Part shown: in pieces, positions 16,248 to 39,519 of the stretch
How positions within the stretch are numbered: the stretch's first letter is position 1
Layout: every line of letters starts with the position of its first letter
DNA from: Verrucomicrobiota bacterium JB024
Lineage (GTDB): Bacteria > Verrucomicrobiota > Verrucomicrobiia > Opitutales > Cerasicoccaceae
Direction: 5' to 3'
Assembly: GCA_030673825.1 (NCBI GenBank)
Contig: JAUTCS010000010.1
Span: 1-44,389 of the forward strand
Length of the DNA: 44,389 nt
Notes under the pieces: generated by a model
What the model was told of the DNA's origin: nothing
Seen by the model: the letters and a program-made list of their open reading frames with translations, nothing else
Databases searched by the model: none
Position numbers and translations under genes: made by a program

Positions 16248-17573
16248 TTATTCGGCTTCCTGAAATTTTGACTGAACGAGGTTCCGGAGATTATCCTTCA
16301 GCTCCTCGTTGTCGATCTTTTCGATGATCTCCTCGAAAAAGCCGAAGACCAGCAGGTGTTCGGCGTCTTTCTTCGGGATGCCGCGGGCGCGCAGGTAGTA
16401 GAGTTGGTCGGCGTCGATCTGGCCGGTGGTCGCCCCGTGGGAGCACTTCACGTCGTTGGCCTCGATCTCCAGACCGGGCAGCGAGCAGGCCTCGGCGGTG
16501 GGCGAGAGGAGCAGGTTGCGGTTGGTCTGGTAGGCGTCGGTCTGCTGGGCGGTGGGCTCGACAAGGATCATCCCCGAGAAGATCGTGCGGGCGTCGTCCA
16601 GAAGGGCGTTCTTGTAAAGCAGGTCGCTGGTGGCGTGGTCGCCGACGTGGGTCTGGAGCGTGCGCTGGTCGAACTCCTGCTCGCCCGTGGCGACGGTGAG
16701 GGAGTACATCTTTACATCCGCACCGGCTCCGGCCACACGGGTCTGGTTTTCCAGGCGGGCGTACTTGCCGCCAAGGTTGACGGCGATGGTCTTGACCTGC
16801 GCGTCGCGGTCGGCGGCGTTGGCTTCGACCTGGAAGGACTGCGCGGCGGGTGAGAGATTCTGCACGACCTTACGGAAGACCTGGGAGCCCGCGCCGGCGT
16901 GGATGGTGCCGGTGGCGACGGACAGGGTGGGGCAGCAGCCGGTGGCCTTGCCCGAGCCGTAGTAGTCCACGAAGTCCACCTTGGCGTTGTCACCGGTGAC
17001 GAGCAGGGTGTGCGGGAAGATCGTCTCGCCGCAGTCGCTGCTCCAGTAGTAGGCGATGAAGGGCTGCTTCACCTCGACGCCCTTGGGCACGTAGAGGAAC
17101 GCGCCGTCGTGGAAGAAGGCGTTGTGCAGGGCCAGGAGCTTGTCCGAGCCAAGCTTCTGGTCCTCTTCGAGAAAGTACTGGCGGACGAGGTCCGGGCACT
17201 CCTGAAAGGCCTGGCTCAGTGGCATCCAGACGACTCCCTGGTCGATCAGCTCCTGCGAGGCCGCGTCAAAGGCGATGAGTCGGTTGTCCGCGAAGACGAG
17301 CCGACCGGCGGGCTTTTCGACGAGCTTGGAGCGCTCCAGGAGGGCCTCCTGCTGGGCGGGCGCGGGCTCACTGGCCGGGCGGAAGCTGTCCAGATCGAGG
17401 TCCTTGATGCCGGAGAAGCGCCAGCGCTCGTCCTTGCGCGAGGGCATGGGCAGCGTGCCGAAGGCGTCCCAGTTGCTGCGTTTGATCTGCTGCAGCCACG
17501 GCAGCGCGGCCCATTCGGCCACGTGCGCCTCGAAAGTGGCGGCGTCAAAAGCGGGTTTGTCTAAGGTTGGCAT
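16248..17573 (-). CDS. sufD: Fe-S cluster assembly scaffold subunit SufD
   Basis: The start [14 protein letters not shown] gives 441 residues; the open frame continues upstream through an octamer repeat whose translation (QTLKLSNF) is not protein-like. SufD pairs with SufB in the SufBC2D scaffold that builds clusters with SufC ATPase. The right-handed beta-helix core and the C-terminal [22 protein letters not shown] motif are characteristic, with [13 protein letters not shown] at the end. The unusual feature is the repeat element of about 107 bp between it and sufB. Confidence 0.96.
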
Positions 17574-17581
17574 TGCTAAGA

Positions 17582-17688
17582 AGTTTGAGAGTTTGAGAGT
17601 TTGAAAGTTTGAGAGTTGGCAGGTTTGGGAGTTCATCGATCGTTCAGCGGTTGAACTCTCAAACTCTCAAACCAGAAACTCTCAAACC
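17582..17688. repeat. GTTTGAGA octamer element without ORF (sufB-sufD junction)
   Basis: The left arm (17582-17634) has four GTTTGAGA-like octamers then GTTGGCAG and GTTTGGGA. The right arm (17653-17688) is inverted and, read in reverse complement, runs GTTTGAGA, GTTTCTG, then two GTTTGAGA and GTTCA. About 18 bp separate the arms. The arms resemble those flanking the IVP gene at 20819-21347, so this may be an internally deleted derivative. Confidence 0.75.
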
Positions 17689-17700
17689 GCTTCGTCGGCG

Positions 17701-19113
17701 CTAGCCGACGGAGCCCTCCATTTCCAGGTCGATGAGGCGCTTGAGCTCGACGGAGTACTCCATGGGGAACTCGCGCACGAGGTCGTTGACGAAGCCGTTG
17801 ACGGCCAGGCTCATGGCCTCGCCCTCGCTCATGCCGCGCTGCTGCATGTAGAAGATCTGCTCGGCGCTGACCTTGGAAACGCTGGCCTCGTGCTGGACGC
17901 TGTTGTGGTCGCCGCGCACGTTGATGGCCGGGTAGGTGTCGGTGCGGCTGTTGGTGTTGATCAGCAGCGCGTCGCACTCGGTGTTGTTCTTGCAGCCCTT
18001 CAAGTGCTTGGGGATCTGGACGAGCCCGCGGTAGCTGGAGCGGCCCTTGCCTACACTGATGGACTTGGAGATGATGTTGGAGGTGGTCTCGTCGGCGGCG
18101 TGGACCATCTTCGCGCCGGTGTCCTGGTGCTGGCCGTCGTTGGCCAGGGCGATGGAGAGCACCTCGCCGCGGGCCTTGCGGCCCTTGAGGACGACGCCGG
18201 GGTACTTCATGGTCAGGCGCGAGCCGATGTTGCAGTCGATCCAGCGAACCTCTGCCTCTTCCATGGCCATGGCGCGCTTGGTCACGAGGTTGAAGACGTT
18301 GTTGGACCAGTTTTGCACGGTGATGTACTGGATCTTCGCGCCGGGCAGGGCGACCAACTCGACCACGGCCGAGTGTAGGGCGGCGGTGTCAAATTGCGGG
18401 GCGGTGCAGCCCTCCATGTACGTCATTTCGCTGCCCTCGTCGGCGATGATGAGGGTGCGTTCGAACTGGCCGAAGTTCTCGGCGTTGATGCGGAAGTAGG
18501 CCTGGAGCGGCTGGGAAACCTTCACGCCTGGGGGCACGTAGATGAAGCTGCCGCCCGAGAAGCACGCGCTGTTGAGCGCGGAGAACTTGTTGTCACCACT
18601 GGGGATGACCTTACCGAACCACTTCTTGAAAATCTCGGGGTGCTCGTGCAGGCCCTCGTGCGGGCCGACGAAGATGACCCCCTGCTTTTCGAGATCTTCC
18701 TTCATGCGCGAATAGACGGCCTCGGAGTCGAACTGCGCCTCCACCCCGGCGAGGAACTTGCGCTCGCTCTCGGGGATGCCGAGGCGCTCGAAGGTCTGCT
18801 TCACGTCGTCGGGCACCTCGTCCCACGAGCGGCTGGCCTTCTGGCTCTTGGCCAAGTAGTAGCGCACGTCGTTAAAGGCGATGTTTTCGAGGTCCTTGGT
18901 GGCCCAGCCGGTGGGCAGGGGCTTGTCCTCGAAGATTTTCAGCGCCTTTTTCCGGAATTCGCGCACCCAGGCGTCCTCGCCCTTGGCGTCGGAAATGTAG
19001 TCGATGGTGTTTTCCTTCAGGCCGATGCCGGCGTCGAAGGCATAGTCTTCGGCAAAGTGGAAGTTCCCTTTGCTGCGATCGATTTCGAGTTCGGGTGTAG
19101 CGGTGTCGCTCAT
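17701..19113 (-). CDS. sufB: Fe-S cluster assembly scaffold protein SufB
   Basis: A 470-residue protein, close to the family length. SufB is the main cluster-binding scaffold subunit of SufBC2[18 protein letters not shown] near the N-terminus, the beta-helix repeats, and C-terminal [20 protein letters not shown] with [21 protein letters not shown] are diagnostic. In most genomes sufC lies next to it. Here three unrelated genes and octamer repeats separate sufB from sufC, and one repeat arm ends 5 bp before the sufB start codon. Confidence 0.97.
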
Positions 19114-19117
19114 GATA

Positions 19118-19153
19118 GTTTAAGAGTTTGAGAGTTTGAAAGTTTGAGAGTTG
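19118..19153. repeat. Solo GTTTGAGA-octamer arm upstream of sufB
   Basis: Reads GTTTAAGA, GTTTGAGA, GTTTGAAA, GTTTGAGA, GTTG, the same unit order as the left arm at 17582. No inverted partner lies nearby. It occupies the short gap between the lipoprotein gene and sufB and therefore the sufB ribosome-binding region. Confidence 0.75.
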
Positions 19154-19166
19154 ATGCGGGGGAGGG

Positions 19167-19784
19167 TTAGAGGATTTCGACGTCCACCTCGGGCGGTACC
19201 TGCGGGGGCGTCGGGGCCGGGCCCTGGGGAACGACCTTCATCGTGATGTCCTGCGCAAACGAGTCGGGCAGGGTGGCGACTTTGTTCCAGGTGCCGCCGA
19301 GGGTGGTGATCGTGGGCGGAGGCTCGTAGTAGGTCGTTTCGTTGACGTACCAGCCGGGGCTGGGTGTCTCCACCACGCGGATCGGCTCGTCGCTCCACAG
19401 TTCCCAGGAGGAGCCGGTTTGCGGCGGCTTGACCAGGCAGGTGTTCAGGCTGACCGAGGGGCTGCCGAAGGCGTTGACGATCTGCACGAGGTTGTCCTTG
19501 GGCAGGTAAAACGCGCCCGCTTCGTTGGTGAAGCCGGGGTAGAACACGCCCGGCAAGACGATGACATCGACGTTGGTCTTGATGAGCGAGGCCTCGTACT
19601 TGACGGTGTAGCGCAACTGCTCGCTCACCACGACCGAGGGCTGTTCGGGCGACATGGTCACCCCCGCCAGCCGGAACTGTGGCGCGGGCGCCGTCCCGCA
19701 ACCCGCCAGCGCCAGCACGGCGAGCAGACTCAGCGCGGTCAGGCCGGGTCTGCTTTGCGGATGCATGTGGCGGGTGGTGGTCAT
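19167..19784 (-). CDS. Lipoprotein of unknown function
   Basis: From the ATG at 19784 it encodes 205 residues. A signal peptide with lipobox LALAGC (Cys 29) marks it for lipidation at the outer or inner membrane. The mature part contains SVVVSEQLRYTVKYEASLIKTNVDVIVLPGVFYPGF, read in two overlapping pieces here, and ends with a Pro-rich tail. No known domain is recognised. A longer in-frame extension overlaps the alcohol dehydrogenase in another frame and is rejected. It lies 20 bp after that gene and is probably co-transcribed; its presence inside a suf cluster is odd. Confidence 0.72.
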   Translation of the reverse strand: MTTTRHMHPQSRPGLTALSLLAVLALAGCGTAPAPQFRLAGVTMSPEQPSVVVSEQLRYTVKYEASLIKTNVDVIVLPGVFYPGFTNEAGAFYLPKDNLVQIVNAFGSPSVSLNTCLVKPPQTGSSWELWSDEPIRVVETPSPGWYVNETTYYEPPPTITTLGGTWNKVATLPDSFAQDITMKVVPQGPAPTPPQVPPEVDVEIL

Positions 19785-19804
19785 GGTGATGGTGAAAGGA
19801 GGAA

Positions 19805-20815
19805 CTACTGGCGGTCGAGGACGATGCGGTAGCGGGCCTGACCCGAGCGCAGGTGCTCGAAGGCGTCGTTGATTTTGTCCATGGGAAAATGTTCGGTCAC
19901 GGGGGCGATGCTGTGGCGGGCGCAGAACTCCAGCATGTCGGCGCAAGTGGCGGGGCTGCCCATGGGGGAGCCGCCGATCGAGCGCTGAGCTTCGAGTAGC
20001 TGGAACGGGACGAACTCGGCTGGCGGGGCTGCGCCGACGAAGTGCAGCTTGCCGCCGGGGCGCAGGAGGTTCAGGTACGCACTCCAGTCCAGGCCGACAT
20101 TGACCGTTACGAGGATCATATCGAGCGACCCGCGCAGGCGCTTGAACGCGTCCGGCTCGCGCGAGTTGACGAAGTGGTGCGCGCCCATTGAGCGGGCTTC
20201 CTCTTCCTTGTCCGCGCTGGAGGAAAAGGCCGTCACTTCGCAGCCCCAGGCCTTGGCAAACTGGAGGGCGTGGTGCCCGAGCCCGCCGATGCCGACCACG
20301 CCCACGCGATGCGTGGGCAGGACGCGATTGATGAAGAAGGGATTGAACACCGTGATGCCGCCGCAGAAGAGCGGGCCGGCCTTGGTGGCGTCGAGCGCGG
20401 CGGGCAGCGGGATGGCCCATTCGCTCTTGGCCACGAGGTGGCTGGCGAAGCCGCCGTGGCGACCCACGATGGTCTCCTCGGCATGCGAACAGCGGTTGTG
20501 GTGGCCGCTCATACATTCGCGGCAGTGCATGCACGAGCCGGAGAACCAGCCGACGCCGACCTTTTGGCCGAGCTGAAGGTGCGAGACGTGCTCGCCCTTC
20601 CACAGAATCGTCCCGACGACCTCATGCCCGCCGACGAAAGGATAGGCCGAGCGGCCCCAGTCGTTGTCCAACATGGACAGGTCGCTGTGGCAGATGCCGC
20701 AGTGCTCGACCGCGATCAGCACCTCGTCCGCGCGCAGGTCGCCCGCCTTGTACTCGAAGGGTTCGAAGGCGGCTTTGGGCGCGTTGGCGGCGTAGGCTTT
20801 AATCGTCGTGCTCAT
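19805..20815 (-). CDS. Zinc-dependent alcohol/aldehyde dehydrogenase (CAD/YahK-like)
   Basis: A 336-residue medium-chain dehydrogenase. Catalytic zinc ligands appear in CGICHSD and GGHEVVG, structural zinc cysteines in SCMHCRECMSGHHNRC, and the nucleotide loop is VGIGGLGHHA. It resembles the cinnamyl-alcohol-dehydrogenase/YahK branch, which reduces aldehydes with NADPH; the substrate is a guess. It lies inside the suf cluster between the IVP gene and a lipoprotein gene, and an octamer arm sits 3 bp before its ATG. There is no obvious link to Fe-S assembly. Confidence 0.9.
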   Translation of the reverse strand: MSTTIKAYAANAPKAAFEPFEYKAGDLRADEVLIAVEHCGICHSDLSMLDNDWGRSAYPFVGGHEVVGTILWKGEHVSHLQLGQKVGVGWFSGSCMHCRECMSGHHNRCSHAEETIVGRHGGFASHLVAKSEWAIPLPAALDATKAGPLFCGGITVFNPFFINRVLPTHRVGVVGIGGLGHHALQFAKAWGCEVTAFSSSADKEEEARSMGAHHFVNSREPDAFKRLRGSLDMILVTVNVGLDWSAYLNLLRPGGKLHFVGAAPPAEFVPFQLLEAQRSIGGSPMGSPATCADMLEFCARHSIAPVTEHFPMDKINDAFEHLRSGQARYRIVLDRQ

Positions 20816-20818
20816 GTT

Positions 20819-21347
20819 GAAGTTTGAGAGTTTGAGAGTTCGAGAGTTTGAAAGTTTGAAAGTTGGGTTAGTCGGAGGGGAGGGTGAAGGCGGTTTCGGG
20901 TTCGCGCAGTTCGGCGGGTTTGAACTTCATGCCTTTGAGGTCCGATTTCGAGAGGTAGGCGATGAAACCGCTGAGCAGCGCCTCGGCTTCGGTGGCAACC
21001 GCATAGACGGCATCGAACTGCACCTGGTTGATGTAATCGGCGTCGATCATGACGTAGAGCTGGCTCTTGACCTCGGCCAGGGAGCCGCGGGCGACATACA
21101 GAAACTGCAAGAACTCGCGGTTGCCACTGCGGCCGAAGCCTTCGGCGATGTTGGACATGGCCGAGATGCTGCTGCGCCGTATCTGGTCGCACAGAGCGAA
21201 GTCGCGCGCGGCAGGCAGTGTGGCCGTGAGGGCATAGACGAAGCGGGAAAGCTCGCGGGCTTTCTGCCAGGCCTGAATCTCCTCAAATGTCCGGATGCTT
21301 GCCATCTGCTGAACTCTCAAACTCTCAAACCCAAAACTCTCAAACTC
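20819..21347. mobile_element. Putative mobile unit: IVP gene bracketed by inverted GTTTGAGA arms
   Basis: The left arm (20819-20865) has five GTTTGAGA-like octamers ending GTTG. The right arm (21311-21347) is inverted; in reverse complement it shows GTTTGAGA, GTTTTGG, two GTTTGAGA and GTTCA, the same odd unit as the right arm at 17653. The arms abut the stop and start codons of the enclosed four-helix-bundle gene. No transposase is present, and mobility is inferred only from the repeated architecture. Confidence 0.5.
20868..21305 (-). CDS. Four-helix-bundle protein of the 23S rRNA-intervening-sequence (IVP) family
   Basis: The start MASIRTFEEIQAWQKA gives 145 residues. Hallmarks are F-x-x-I-x-AWQKA-x-EL near the N-terminus, DQIRRSSISAMSNIAEGFGR (40-59), EFLQFLYVARGSLAEVKSQL (64-83). 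The family was first seen inside intervening sequences of 23S rRNA genes; the Avd protein of diversity-generating retroelements has the same fold. Its biochemical role is unknown. No rRNA gene or reverse transcriptase is nearby. It lies inside the suf cluster, packed between inverted octamer repeats that reach within a few bases of both ends. Confidence 0.9.
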   Translation of the reverse strand: MASIRTFEEIQAWQKARELSRFVYALTATLPAARDFALCDQIRRSSISAMSNIAEGFGRSGNREFLQFLYVARGSLAEVKSQLYVMIDADYINQVQFDAVYAVATEAEALLSGFIAYLSKSDLKGMKFKPAELREPETAFTLPSD

Positions 21348-21355
21348 CGCGCCGC

Positions 21356-22114
21356 TTAGGCGCTGGCCGGGGCGAGCTCTTCCTTGACCCAGTCGTAGCC
21401 CTTGTCCTCGAGTTCGAGGGCGAGGGTTTTGTCGCCGCTCTTGACGATCTTGCCGTCGTACATGACGTGGACGACATCCGGCACGATGTAGTCGAGCAGG
21501 CGCTGGTAGTGGGTGATGACGAGGAAACCGCGCTCGGGGCCGCGCATGGAGTTGACCCCCTCGGCGACGATGCGCAGGGCGTCGATGTCGAGGCCGGAGT
21601 CGGTCTCGTCCATGATGGCGTACTCGGGCTTGAGCATCATCATCTGAAGGATTTCGCAGCGCTTCTTTTCGCCGCCGGAGAAGCCGTCGTTGACCGAGCG
21701 CGAGGTGAAGGCGCGGTCCATCTTGAGCTGGTCCATGGCCGCGTAGAGCTCCTTGTAGTACTTCGTGGCGACAATGTTCTCACCCTCGGGCAGGCGGGCC
21801 TGGACGGCGGCGCGGATAAAGTTGGCGATGCTCACGCCGGGGATTTCCGCCGGGTACTGGAAGGCCAGAAAAAGGCCGGCGCGGGCGATTGCGTCCGGCT
21901 CCATGCCGACGATGTTGGTGCCGTCGAGGAGGGCTTCGCCGCCGATGATGTCGTAGTCCTCATGACCGGCGAGGGCCTTGGCGAGGGTGCTTTTACCGGT
22001 GCCGTTGGGGCCCATGATGGCATGGACTTCGCCCTTGGGGACGGTGAGGTTGAACTCCTTGAGGATCGGTTTTTCGCCGATGCTGACGGACAGGTTGCGG
22101 ATTTCCAGTGACAT
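21356..22114 (-). CDS. sufC: Fe-S cluster assembly ATPase SufC
   Basis: A 252-residue ABC-type ATPase. Walker A is GPNGTGKST, the signature SGGEKKR and Walker [13 protein letters not shown], the last being typical for SufC. It drives conformational change of the SufB-SufD scaffold. It is the first suf gene after the Fur-type regulator, 45 bp from that stop. Downstream come the repeat-flanked IVP gene and two other genes before sufB. Confidence 0.97.
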
Positions 22115-22159
22115 GATGTGAAGTGGTTCGTGTGTTTTGGGTGAAAATGTGGATGCGAC

Positions 22160-22606
22160 TCAGACGCAGTGGTCGCCTGCGAGGTCCTTGGGGGCGTAGC
22201 CGCTGAAGCTGAGCTTGAACTTTTTCGCCTCGAAGCCCTGCGGGAGCACGTTGGTGATCTCGCGCATGAAGTTTTCGGGCAAATCGATATCGAACACGCG
22301 TCCGGTCGCTTCGTCCAGAAAATGTGCATGTTCGCCGTCGTTAGGACAGAAGCGGCTGGGCTCGCGCTCGTAGTTGAGCTTCTTGACCAGTTCGCACTCG
22401 ACGAGGGTTTCCAGGCAGTTGTAGACGGTGGCGAGCGAGATGGAGGGCATGGCCTGCTTGGCGCGTGCGTAGACCTCGTCCGCGGTCGGGTGGTCGCGCT
22501 GAGTCAGCAGCACCCCGTAGACGTGCTCACGCTGGCGGGTGGCGCGGAGTCCGTTTGTGACCAGCGCCTCCTCCAGTTCGTGTTTGGCGTTTGTGGATAG
22601 CTTCAT
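22160..22606 (-). CDS. Fur-family transcriptional regulator lacking the CxxC zinc motif
   Basis: From the ATG at 22606 the protein has 148 residues. The winged-helix part has HPTADEVYARAKQAMPSISLATVYNCLETL, the usual Fur recognition region. The dimerisation domain retains EHAHF but continues LDEATGRVFDI where classical Fur has a CxxCG structural zinc site, so both cysteines of that site are missing. Irr-type members also lack it. It lies at the head of the suf cluster with Fur-box-like sites upstream, so it probably controls itself and suf in response to iron or cluster status. Confidence 0.88.
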   Translation of the reverse strand: MKLSTNAKHELEEALVTNGLRATRQREHVYGVLLTQRDHPTADEVYARAKQAMPSISLATVYNCLETLVECELVKKLNYEREPSRFCPNDGEHAHFLDEATGRVFDIDLPENFMREITNVLPQGFEAKKFKLSFSGYAPKDLAGDHCV

Positions 22607-39329: not shown

Positions 39330-39339
39330 GGGAGGGAGA

Positions 39340-39519
39340 TTCGTAAATTTGAAGATTTGTAAATTTGAAAATTAATGGAGGTCAGGATCGGATGGCAATG
39401 CCCGCTCGCGCCCGCCATGACAAAAGTGTCGCGCCCCGTCGCTCATTGCAGCTTCGCCTGATACGCCCGCCTGTTTTTCTATTTTACGAATCTACGAATT
39501 TACAAATCTACTAATCTAT
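39340..39519. repeat. Inverted-arm repeat with period-8 AT-rich units
   Basis: The left arm (39340-39373) reads as octamers TAAATTTG, AAGATTTG, TAAATTTG, AAAATTAA. The right arm (39483-39519) reads CGAATCTA, CGAATTTA, CAAATCTA, CTAATCTA. They are roughly inverse, about 110 bp apart, with no ORF between. The architecture matches the GTTTGAGA elements although the octamer differs. Confidence 0.65.

Follow-up and report, generated by a model that had tools for sequence, protein, structure and literature searches.

Why is a gene of the 23S_rRNA_IVP family packed between two inverted octamer arrays in an intergenic space, outside any 23S rRNA gene? An earlier note on this DNA took the arms for the ends of a mobile element with ORF-less derivatives. 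The locus lies in the window, by which we mean the whole stretch of 44,389 nucleotides that was analysed, a contig of the 4.6-Mb genome of Verrucomicrobiota bacterium JB024 (G000).

An IVP gene between inverted octamer arms

On the minus strand of the window the gene order is Fur, sufC, IVP, the NADPH aldehyde reductase gene Ahr, an ORF without a Pfam match, sufB and sufD. The IVP ORF, with its ATG at 21305 and TAA at 20868 (Table 1), is a member of PF05635 (E = 1.5e-33, 115.7 bits against the Pfam cut-off of 33.8) and of TIGR02436, four helix bundle protein (2.4e-32, 111.4 bits against a cut-off of 24). Its arms are inverted copies of GTTTGAGA arrays, and they take up nearly all of the intergenic space, leaving 6 bp to the start of the aldehyde reductase gene (20815) on the left and 10 bp to the end of sufC (21356) on the right. 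The inverted-arm score at this gene is 45, compared with 14-21 at four control positions of equal spacing, which confirms the earlier description of an IVP gene packed between inverted octamer arms. When the sense transcript of the element is folded as RNA (z = -4.4), the ORF becomes the loop of a long stem.

Table 1. Positions of the IVP gene and of the array arms in the window.
Feature	Position	Strand	Basis
Left arm of ORF-less hairpin between sufD and sufB, 35 nt, five GTT	17583..17617	+	sequence
Right arm of sufD-sufB ORF-less hairpin, 34 nt, five GTT	17654..17687	-	sequence
Single arm directly upstream of the sufB start, 35 nt, five GTT	19118..19152	+	sequence
Downstream arm of IVP gene, 43 nt, six GTT	20822..20864	+	GTTTGAGA inward from the opposite side
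IVP gene, four-helix-bundle protein, 145 aa, 23S_rRNA_IVP family	20868..21305	-	PF05635, TIGR02436, AlphaFold
Upstream arm of IVP gene, 34 nt, five GTT, one odd 7-nt unit	21312..21345	-	coding strand is GTTTGAGA inward
Left arm of ORF-less hairpin of the second octad family, AGATTCGTAAATTTGA	39337..39373	+	sequence
Right arm of the AGATTCGTAAATTTGA ORF-less hairpin	39483..39518	-	sequence

The closest precedent for this layout is the intervening sequence (IVS) of 23S rRNA genes. Passages of PMC4990558 describe the Coxiella IVS as an S23p ORF within a 28-bp inverted terminal stem, with tandem GACAGAT heptads just upstream of the ORF whose number varies between strains. The window element likewise consists of an IVP-family ORF inside inverted arms of tandem short units. 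Unlike the 23S IVS, it lies between protein genes, namely sufC and the aldehyde reductase gene, its cognate ORF-less copies are dispersed and no excision from rRNA is involved. A known RNA family was considered for the element and rejected, as the Rfam scan of positions 17000-22500 returned nothing above the gathering score, its one match at E<=1 being a sub-threshold miRNA (E = 0.92) on the ORF-less hairpin.

The gene-free pair with the same end types that the earlier note had placed at 17582-17688 is indeed present, between sufD and sufB, and folding of its minus strand as RNA gives z = -6.4. To this we add the single arm at the sufB start, which is absent from the earlier note; an array occupies the same place in the sister genome G001, and no clear array is seen there in the relatives G002 or G003. 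Five GTT triplets are found in four of the five GTTTGAGA arms of the window. The odd 7-nt unit, which had been thought to distinguish left from right ends, does occur in one arm only in both window elements. It fails as a general mark of sidedness: among 30 other hairpins of G000 and G001 (from the matches listed) it is absent from 23, present in one arm of 6 and present in both arms of 1.

Bracketed IVP genes in other genomes

We scored bracketing as the best inverted alignment between two 220-nt stretches, one preceding the IVP profile match and the other following the stop, and called a locus bracketed when this best local alignment scored at least 26. The earlier note had suggested looking for inverted repeats in the flanks of other IVP genes, and the answer is positive: in five samples taken together, 144 of 209 IVP loci carry such arms, compared with 2-10% of the controls, and the remaining 65 have no arms at this threshold. 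Bracketed loci number 18/30 in the window's own family, 61/78 in a sample drawn by similarity to a Cerasicoccus IVP (63/80 before the duplicates of L022 and L023, L046 and L047, were removed), 35/60 at places of the phylum sample hand-picked among the matches listed, 20/29 at automatically fetched loci of the same sample and 10/12 on cyanobacterial plasmids, the 12 being hand-picked from 34 records. Many of the source genomes are MAGs, and by record title the similarity sample comes mainly from Bacteroidota, Planctomycetota, Verrucomicrobiota, Desulfobacterota and Nitrospirota. For the 60 phylum places the choice was made among those without a fetched locus, L061 and L235 are probably one locus that is counted twice in the 209, and L037, which has an internal stop, belongs to the 30 own-family loci and stands outside the length and period counts.

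At shifted control positions of equal spacing the threshold score was reached in 17 of 665 cases for the similarity sample, 3 of 118 for the own-family sample, 7 of 301 for the hand-picked phylum and plasmid loci and 10 of 172 for the fetched phylum loci; neighbouring genes used as controls gave 11/115, 0/6 and 0/4. An Rfam scan of 20 IVP loci placed none of them in rRNA, the only matches being two tRNAs. We conclude that the bracketing of IVP genes by arms is real and general, and the data support the arms and the IVP gene as a recurring unit. They further suggest that IVP genes in inverted arms are a widespread, little-noticed kind of repeat element across bacterial phyla. In the literature searched, largely outside subscription journals, the matches listed contained no recognised account of IVP genes set within inverted arrays away from rRNA genes.

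A PF05635 match is present in 78 of the 115 genomes of the phylum sample. One of them, the 2.6-Mb genome G052, has 18 such matches, and its genus mates G078, G081 and G130 have 8-13.

Inverted arms are also found around genes of another family, PDDEXK_3 (PF13366), also named GxxExxY. In an order sample (L362-L388) they occur at 16 of 23 loci, compared with 4 of 125 control positions, 30 loci having been fetched and 7 partial or internal-stop matches omitted from scoring. Hence, the bracketed setting is not limited to IVP. By eye, several of the PDDEXK_3 arms seem to be built of units of about 9 nt (CGCAAAGGA). As a property of these flanks in general, a period of 9 was rejected: the pooled autocorrelation was 0.299 and 0.304, compared with 0.313 in controls, and thus showed no excess.

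Period, length and polarity of the arms

The repeated unit varies from locus to locus (GTTTGAGA, AGGCAGA, GGCACAAA, GGCAATA, AGGGAGT and many more), whereas the period stays at 7 or 8. This period exceeds the 99% level of shuffled sequence in 232 of 357 flanks, and under a stricter score it is found in 156 flanks, compared with 1-2 for periods 5-6, 9-10 and 11-12 (L230-L258 stand outside the period and length counts). The G-rich strand of the arms is mostly directed inward, with G exceeding C in the upstream arm at 71 of 79 loci and falling below it at 5. The same polarity is seen among the matches listed in G000 and G001, where neighbouring arms of opposite orientation less than 300 nt apart form 30 inward pairs and no outward pair.

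Arms of period 7 have their most frequent length at 31 nt (24 of 128 exactly, 45 within 1 nt), and those of period 8, less sharply, at 35 nt (9 of 73 exactly, 17 within 1 nt). Both values equal 4p+3, that is, four units and one triplet, which amounts to five triplets. Lengths of 3p+3 (6 arms of period 7 and 7 of period 8) and 5p+3 (8 and 5 arms) are rarer. A strict mismatch penalty weakens the 4p+3 peak, to 20 of 94 arms compared with 17 at 3p+3 for period 7 and to 8 of 44 compared with 7 for period 8. Since the score threshold disfavours short arms, the drop above five triplets is firmer than the drop below. Counting triplets directly among the matches listed in G000 and G001, we find five GTT in 48 of 95 arm rows, four in 26 and six in 11; exactly five are present in 46 of 93 once two doubly listed arms are removed, and in 38 of 60 when hairpin arms alone are taken.

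Mismatches between arms form G-U pairs 58 times in the sense and 62 times in the antisense transcript. In the absence of a bias toward the sense transcript, nothing favours an RNA hairpin, and the idea of an RNA hairpin under selection is weakened. A mirrored order of units between the two arms was seen in a test that is biased by the choice of the best alignment. Concerted change of paired arms was weak overall (0.62 compared with 0.47, for 18 loci compared out of 19 of 36 that passed the arm filter) and reversed in one of four ortholog groups (0.54 compared with 0.58). Neither observation is more than suggestive.

Dispersed arms match the unit of the resident IVP gene in some genomes

With two mismatches allowed and overlapping matches counted, the octamer pair matches G000 112 times and G001 100 times, but each of eight other family genomes only 1-4 times. 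These relatives serve as the control for dispersal; reversing the octamer gives no usable control, since the result is a rotation of the same octamer. G000 and G001 are the two genomes with an IVP gene inside GTTTGAGA arms beside sufC. As G005 and G006 also have an IVP gene beside sufC, dispersal goes with an IVP in GTTTGAGA arms and not with an IVP as such.

The further array sites examined number at least 28 in G000 and at least 32 in G001. Between them they comprise at least 30 hairpins and at least 35 single-arm rows, two of the rows being also parts of hairpins. The ORF-less derivatives postulated earlier are thus borne out as gene-free hairpins and single arms that carry the cognate unit and are dispersed over the genome. 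Among the matches listed in the two genomes, the hairpin loops are 24-231 nt long and show no kinship between sites, apart from two orthologous pairs and one 15-nt match. Thirteen of the 28 G000 sites (among the matches listed) have an array at the orthologous place in G001 with both flanks aligned.

The match between the unit of the IVP arms and the unit of the dispersed arrays was examined in 40 genomes, grouped by arm units that had been seen earlier; the group borders were recorded only after the pattern counts, and the matches include the IVP's own arms. At least three exact matches to the GGCACAAA pattern were found in 5 of 12 cognate and 0 of 28 other genomes (p = 0.0012; p = 0.006 for at least one match), 7 of the 12 having no exact match. 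For the GGCAATA pattern the figures were 4 of 7 and 0 of 33 (p = 0.0004; p = 0.0007 for at least one), and for GGCAGAA they were 2 of 9 and 1 of 31, which is not significant (p = 0.12; p = 0.06 for at least one). Specificity of the unit by genome is therefore significant for two of the three patterns.

In G011 we noticed by eye four ORF-less hairpins (L181, L186, L191 and L204) with a common core of about 110 nt and common outer flanks. These copies resemble a true miniature element.

The gene mostly persists while its arms turn over

The earlier note had also proposed a search for empty sites in relatives, and one exists: in G002 the aldehyde reductase gene and sufC are separated by 27 bp, with neither gene nor arms. 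In G003 the same site is taken by a gene-free hairpin from another octad family, and one unpaired arm in the sufD-sufB gap is built from the heptad unit of the IVP that this genome has. The ORF-less sufD-sufB pair is a case of retained arms with differing loops. The ORF-less G000 hairpin L411 is absent from the aligned place in the sister G001, where two genes almost touch. No target duplication was seen at the window site in a comparison by eye, and none of the loci compared showed a transposition event, a target duplication or a mobilising enzyme.

A second genus of the family (G005 and G006) has an IVP gene beside sufC with a similar C-terminal extension and weak arms. One IVP of G006 is 100% identical to one from Cerasicoccus frondis, and the window's family hence includes Cerasicoccus. 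A second intergenic site is occupied by an IVP of one subfamily in G003 and of another in G004-G008, by other short-unit repeats of about 9 nt (judged by eye, as hairpins in G000 and G002) in G000-G002 and by nothing notable in G009. Many IVP genes keep their neighbours from one species or genus to another, for example in leuA-leuB, in hisA-hisF and next to tilS. A freely hopping IVP gene is consequently not supported, the same place being kept across species and genera, and vertical persistence with losses fits these frequently shared places better than frequent transposition. The mobile element of the earlier note thus stands as a recurring unit with ORF-less derivatives and empty sites, but not as a freely moving gene, given the long-term synteny. 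The synteny of the genes together with the gains and losses of arms among relatives shows that the IVP gene mostly tends to persist, whereas its arms come, go and change.

Several further observations concern the same gaps and linkers. The sufC junction of G003 is filled by a unit resembling the second octad family of the window, AGATTCGTAAATTTGA. The sufD-sufB gap of G002 (L128) measures about 780 bp and has an open stretch of 268 codons with, by eye, a lipoprotein-like signal. The linker of valS carries an in-frame octad array in G000 (L010, about 1495-1535) and, by eye, another translated array in G008 (L358), and it is short in G002.

Three other ideas were rejected or weakened. Insertion only along the direction of transcription found no backing, as co-orientation with neighbours did not exceed background in noisy ORF calls; a phage origin met with no match to one IVP query in 50,697 phage records; and as to membership in a defence family, four IVPs compared with PADLOC gave no match at E<=0.01.

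A proposed pentameric ring and five triplets

The AlphaFold model of the window IVP is a bundle of four long helices (mean pLDDT 88.8). The nearest solved folds are 2gsc and 2rld, with five chains each, followed by Avd (4dwl, TM 0.64) and the DGR ribonucleoprotein 8ub7. Passages of PMC4990558 describe the Xanthomonas homologue as a toroidal homopentamer. The window IVP has no catalytic domain named by Pfam, whose only matches are IVP and a weak one to bAvd, and the literature searched yielded no report of nucleic-acid binding by an IVP.

Combining five triplets with five subunits, we propose that one arm fills one ring, with one triplet for each subunit. The five-triplet reading of the arms by a putative pentamer is one that we infer from the length statistics. 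The IVP would form a homopentameric ring in which each subunit reads one triplet anchor, so that a five-triplet arm (4p+3 = 31 or 35 nt) would fill it much as RNA fills TRAP. The gene and its own arms would evolve together at a stable locus, with the protein acting in trans on cognate arms, which it may protect, pair or help to copy, and with polymerase or nuclease activity supplied by the host. Within this proposal, action in trans is what would make arms accumulate, in intergenic gaps and flexible linkers that collect them, with the gene mainly inherited vertically. The 23S rRNA IVS would be a special case, in which such an element sits inside an rRNA gene.

We give about even weight to the view that IVP genes, where they lie outside rRNA, belong to a two-part repeat system resembling REPIN-RAYT, in which a ring reads five triplets, the gene is stable and the arms are acted on in trans. 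A more ambitious form of this idea, toward which we remain rather sceptical, is that IVP/S23 proteins in general are sequence-specific five-triplet rings and that, with their 31- or 35-nt arms, they make up an element class, spread over many bacterial phyla, that may explain many heptamer and octamer arrays as well as the 23S IVS, with the same layout in at least one unrelated family of small proteins, the PDDEXK_3 nucleases.

Alternative explanations

The arms might instead belong to a host regulatory module, in which the IVP ring would bind single-stranded arms in mRNA, as TRAP does, and so control translation or stability for its own and neighbouring genes, the arms being kept by host selection rather than by mobility. 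Such a role would suit the position of the window arms, no more than about 15 nt from a start or stop (the sufD start being inferred), the arrays at orthologous G001 places for at least 13 of 28 G000 sites, the sufD-sufB arms that are kept while their loops differ, the retention of IVP in leuA-leuB and hisA-hisF contexts and the frequency of five-triplet arms. However, units and places vary among related genomes, one gap is occupied by different elements in relatives, G-U pairs show no bias, one array lies within the valS coding sequence and a G000 hairpin is missing in G001. On balance, we regard a regulatory module as unlikely.

It is also improbable, in our judgement, that the arms are the terminal inverted repeats of a classic mobile element, which would move as a unit, with its gene or as an ORF-less MITE. 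A transposase or reverse transcriptase from another locus would then mobilise it, and the IVP would be an accessory protein, as Avd is to the DGR reverse transcriptase. The loops are unrelated in G000 and G001, unlike those of a classic MITE, the IVP gene shows long-term synteny and the window site has no target duplication by eye. These observations stand against the empty sites for gene and arms (G002) and for an ORF-less hairpin (G001), the four G011 copies with a common core and outer flanks by eye, the fold similarity to Avd, including the DGR ribonucleoprotein 8ub7, and the occurrence of distinct IVP subfamilies at a single site among relatives.

The notion that the arrays are passive products of slippage and inversion in intergenic DNA, merely tolerated by IVP genes, could draw on the heptamer arrays of Beggiatoaceae, cyanobacteria and Bacteroidetes reported without a linked IVP gene (passages of PMC4679880) and on the bracketed PDDEXK_3 genes, but it is already disfavoured and most improbable in view of the excess of bracketing compared with neighbour genes and shifted positions, the inward polarity of arm pairs, the length peaks at 31 and 35 nt and the matching of units by genome.

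Relation to known repeat systems

For the two-part repeat system that we prefer, the REPIN-RAYT pattern may serve as the closest working model of arm multiplication. As described in passages of PMC3116915, that pattern likewise combines a stable gene, cognate inverted repeats beside it, dispersed ORF-less pairs and singlets, and a unit specific to the genome, and the window IVP, too, has inverted pairs elsewhere in its genome that match its flanking repeat. The two systems differ in that RAYT is a tyrosine (Y1) transposase and REPs are short palindromes (same passages), whereas the arms described here are arrays of period 7 or 8. The window IVP is not a RAYT, as Pfam gives no Y1 transposase.

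The IVP resembles Avd and bAvd of diversity-generating retroelements in its four-helix fold and in weak profile matches, which stay below the cut-offs (bAvd, 15.1 bits compared with 40; DivGenRetAVD, 18 compared with 80). No reverse transcriptase was found among eight window ORFs scanned with Pfam.

TRAP is unrelated to the IVP protein, and its triplets are spaced more closely. The likeness would be one of analogy, that of a ring protein with one triplet per subunit, binding by the IVP being putative. Unlike the putative IVP pentamer, TRAP has 11 subunits, and its ring binds 11 (G/U)AG repeats (abstract of PMC4027176).

The arms also resemble TAACTGA arrays and the cyanobacterial heptamer arrays known as STRR in being short intergenic arrays, with 7-nt units. 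Arrays of TAACTGA heptamers are described from Beggiatoaceae, cyanobacteria and Bacteroidetes in passages of PMC4679880, where a search for terms turned up no mention of an S23/IVP or four-helix protein in connection with them. In contrast to the arrays as described there, those reported here are linked to a gene family.

On the cyanobacterial plasmids, armed IVP genes at L261, L263 and L267 lie inside CRISPR-Cas operons, in the orders cas6-IVP-cas4 and cas10-IVP-cmr3. A figure legend in a CRISPR survey names 23S rRNA IVP among novel associations (PMC10910872), and the wording of that legend fits these loci.

Implications

In the literature searched we found no accepted explanation for short-period intergenic arrays or for the IVP/S23 family. 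The link between arrays and IVP genes gives the family candidate binding sites and the arrays a candidate binder, and it predicts a stoichiometry of five triplets per five-membered ring. On this account, IVP genes may turn up in searches that start from arrays, such as those for CRISPR partners. If the proposal is true, the intervening sequence of 23S rRNA would be a special case of a wider class of elements.
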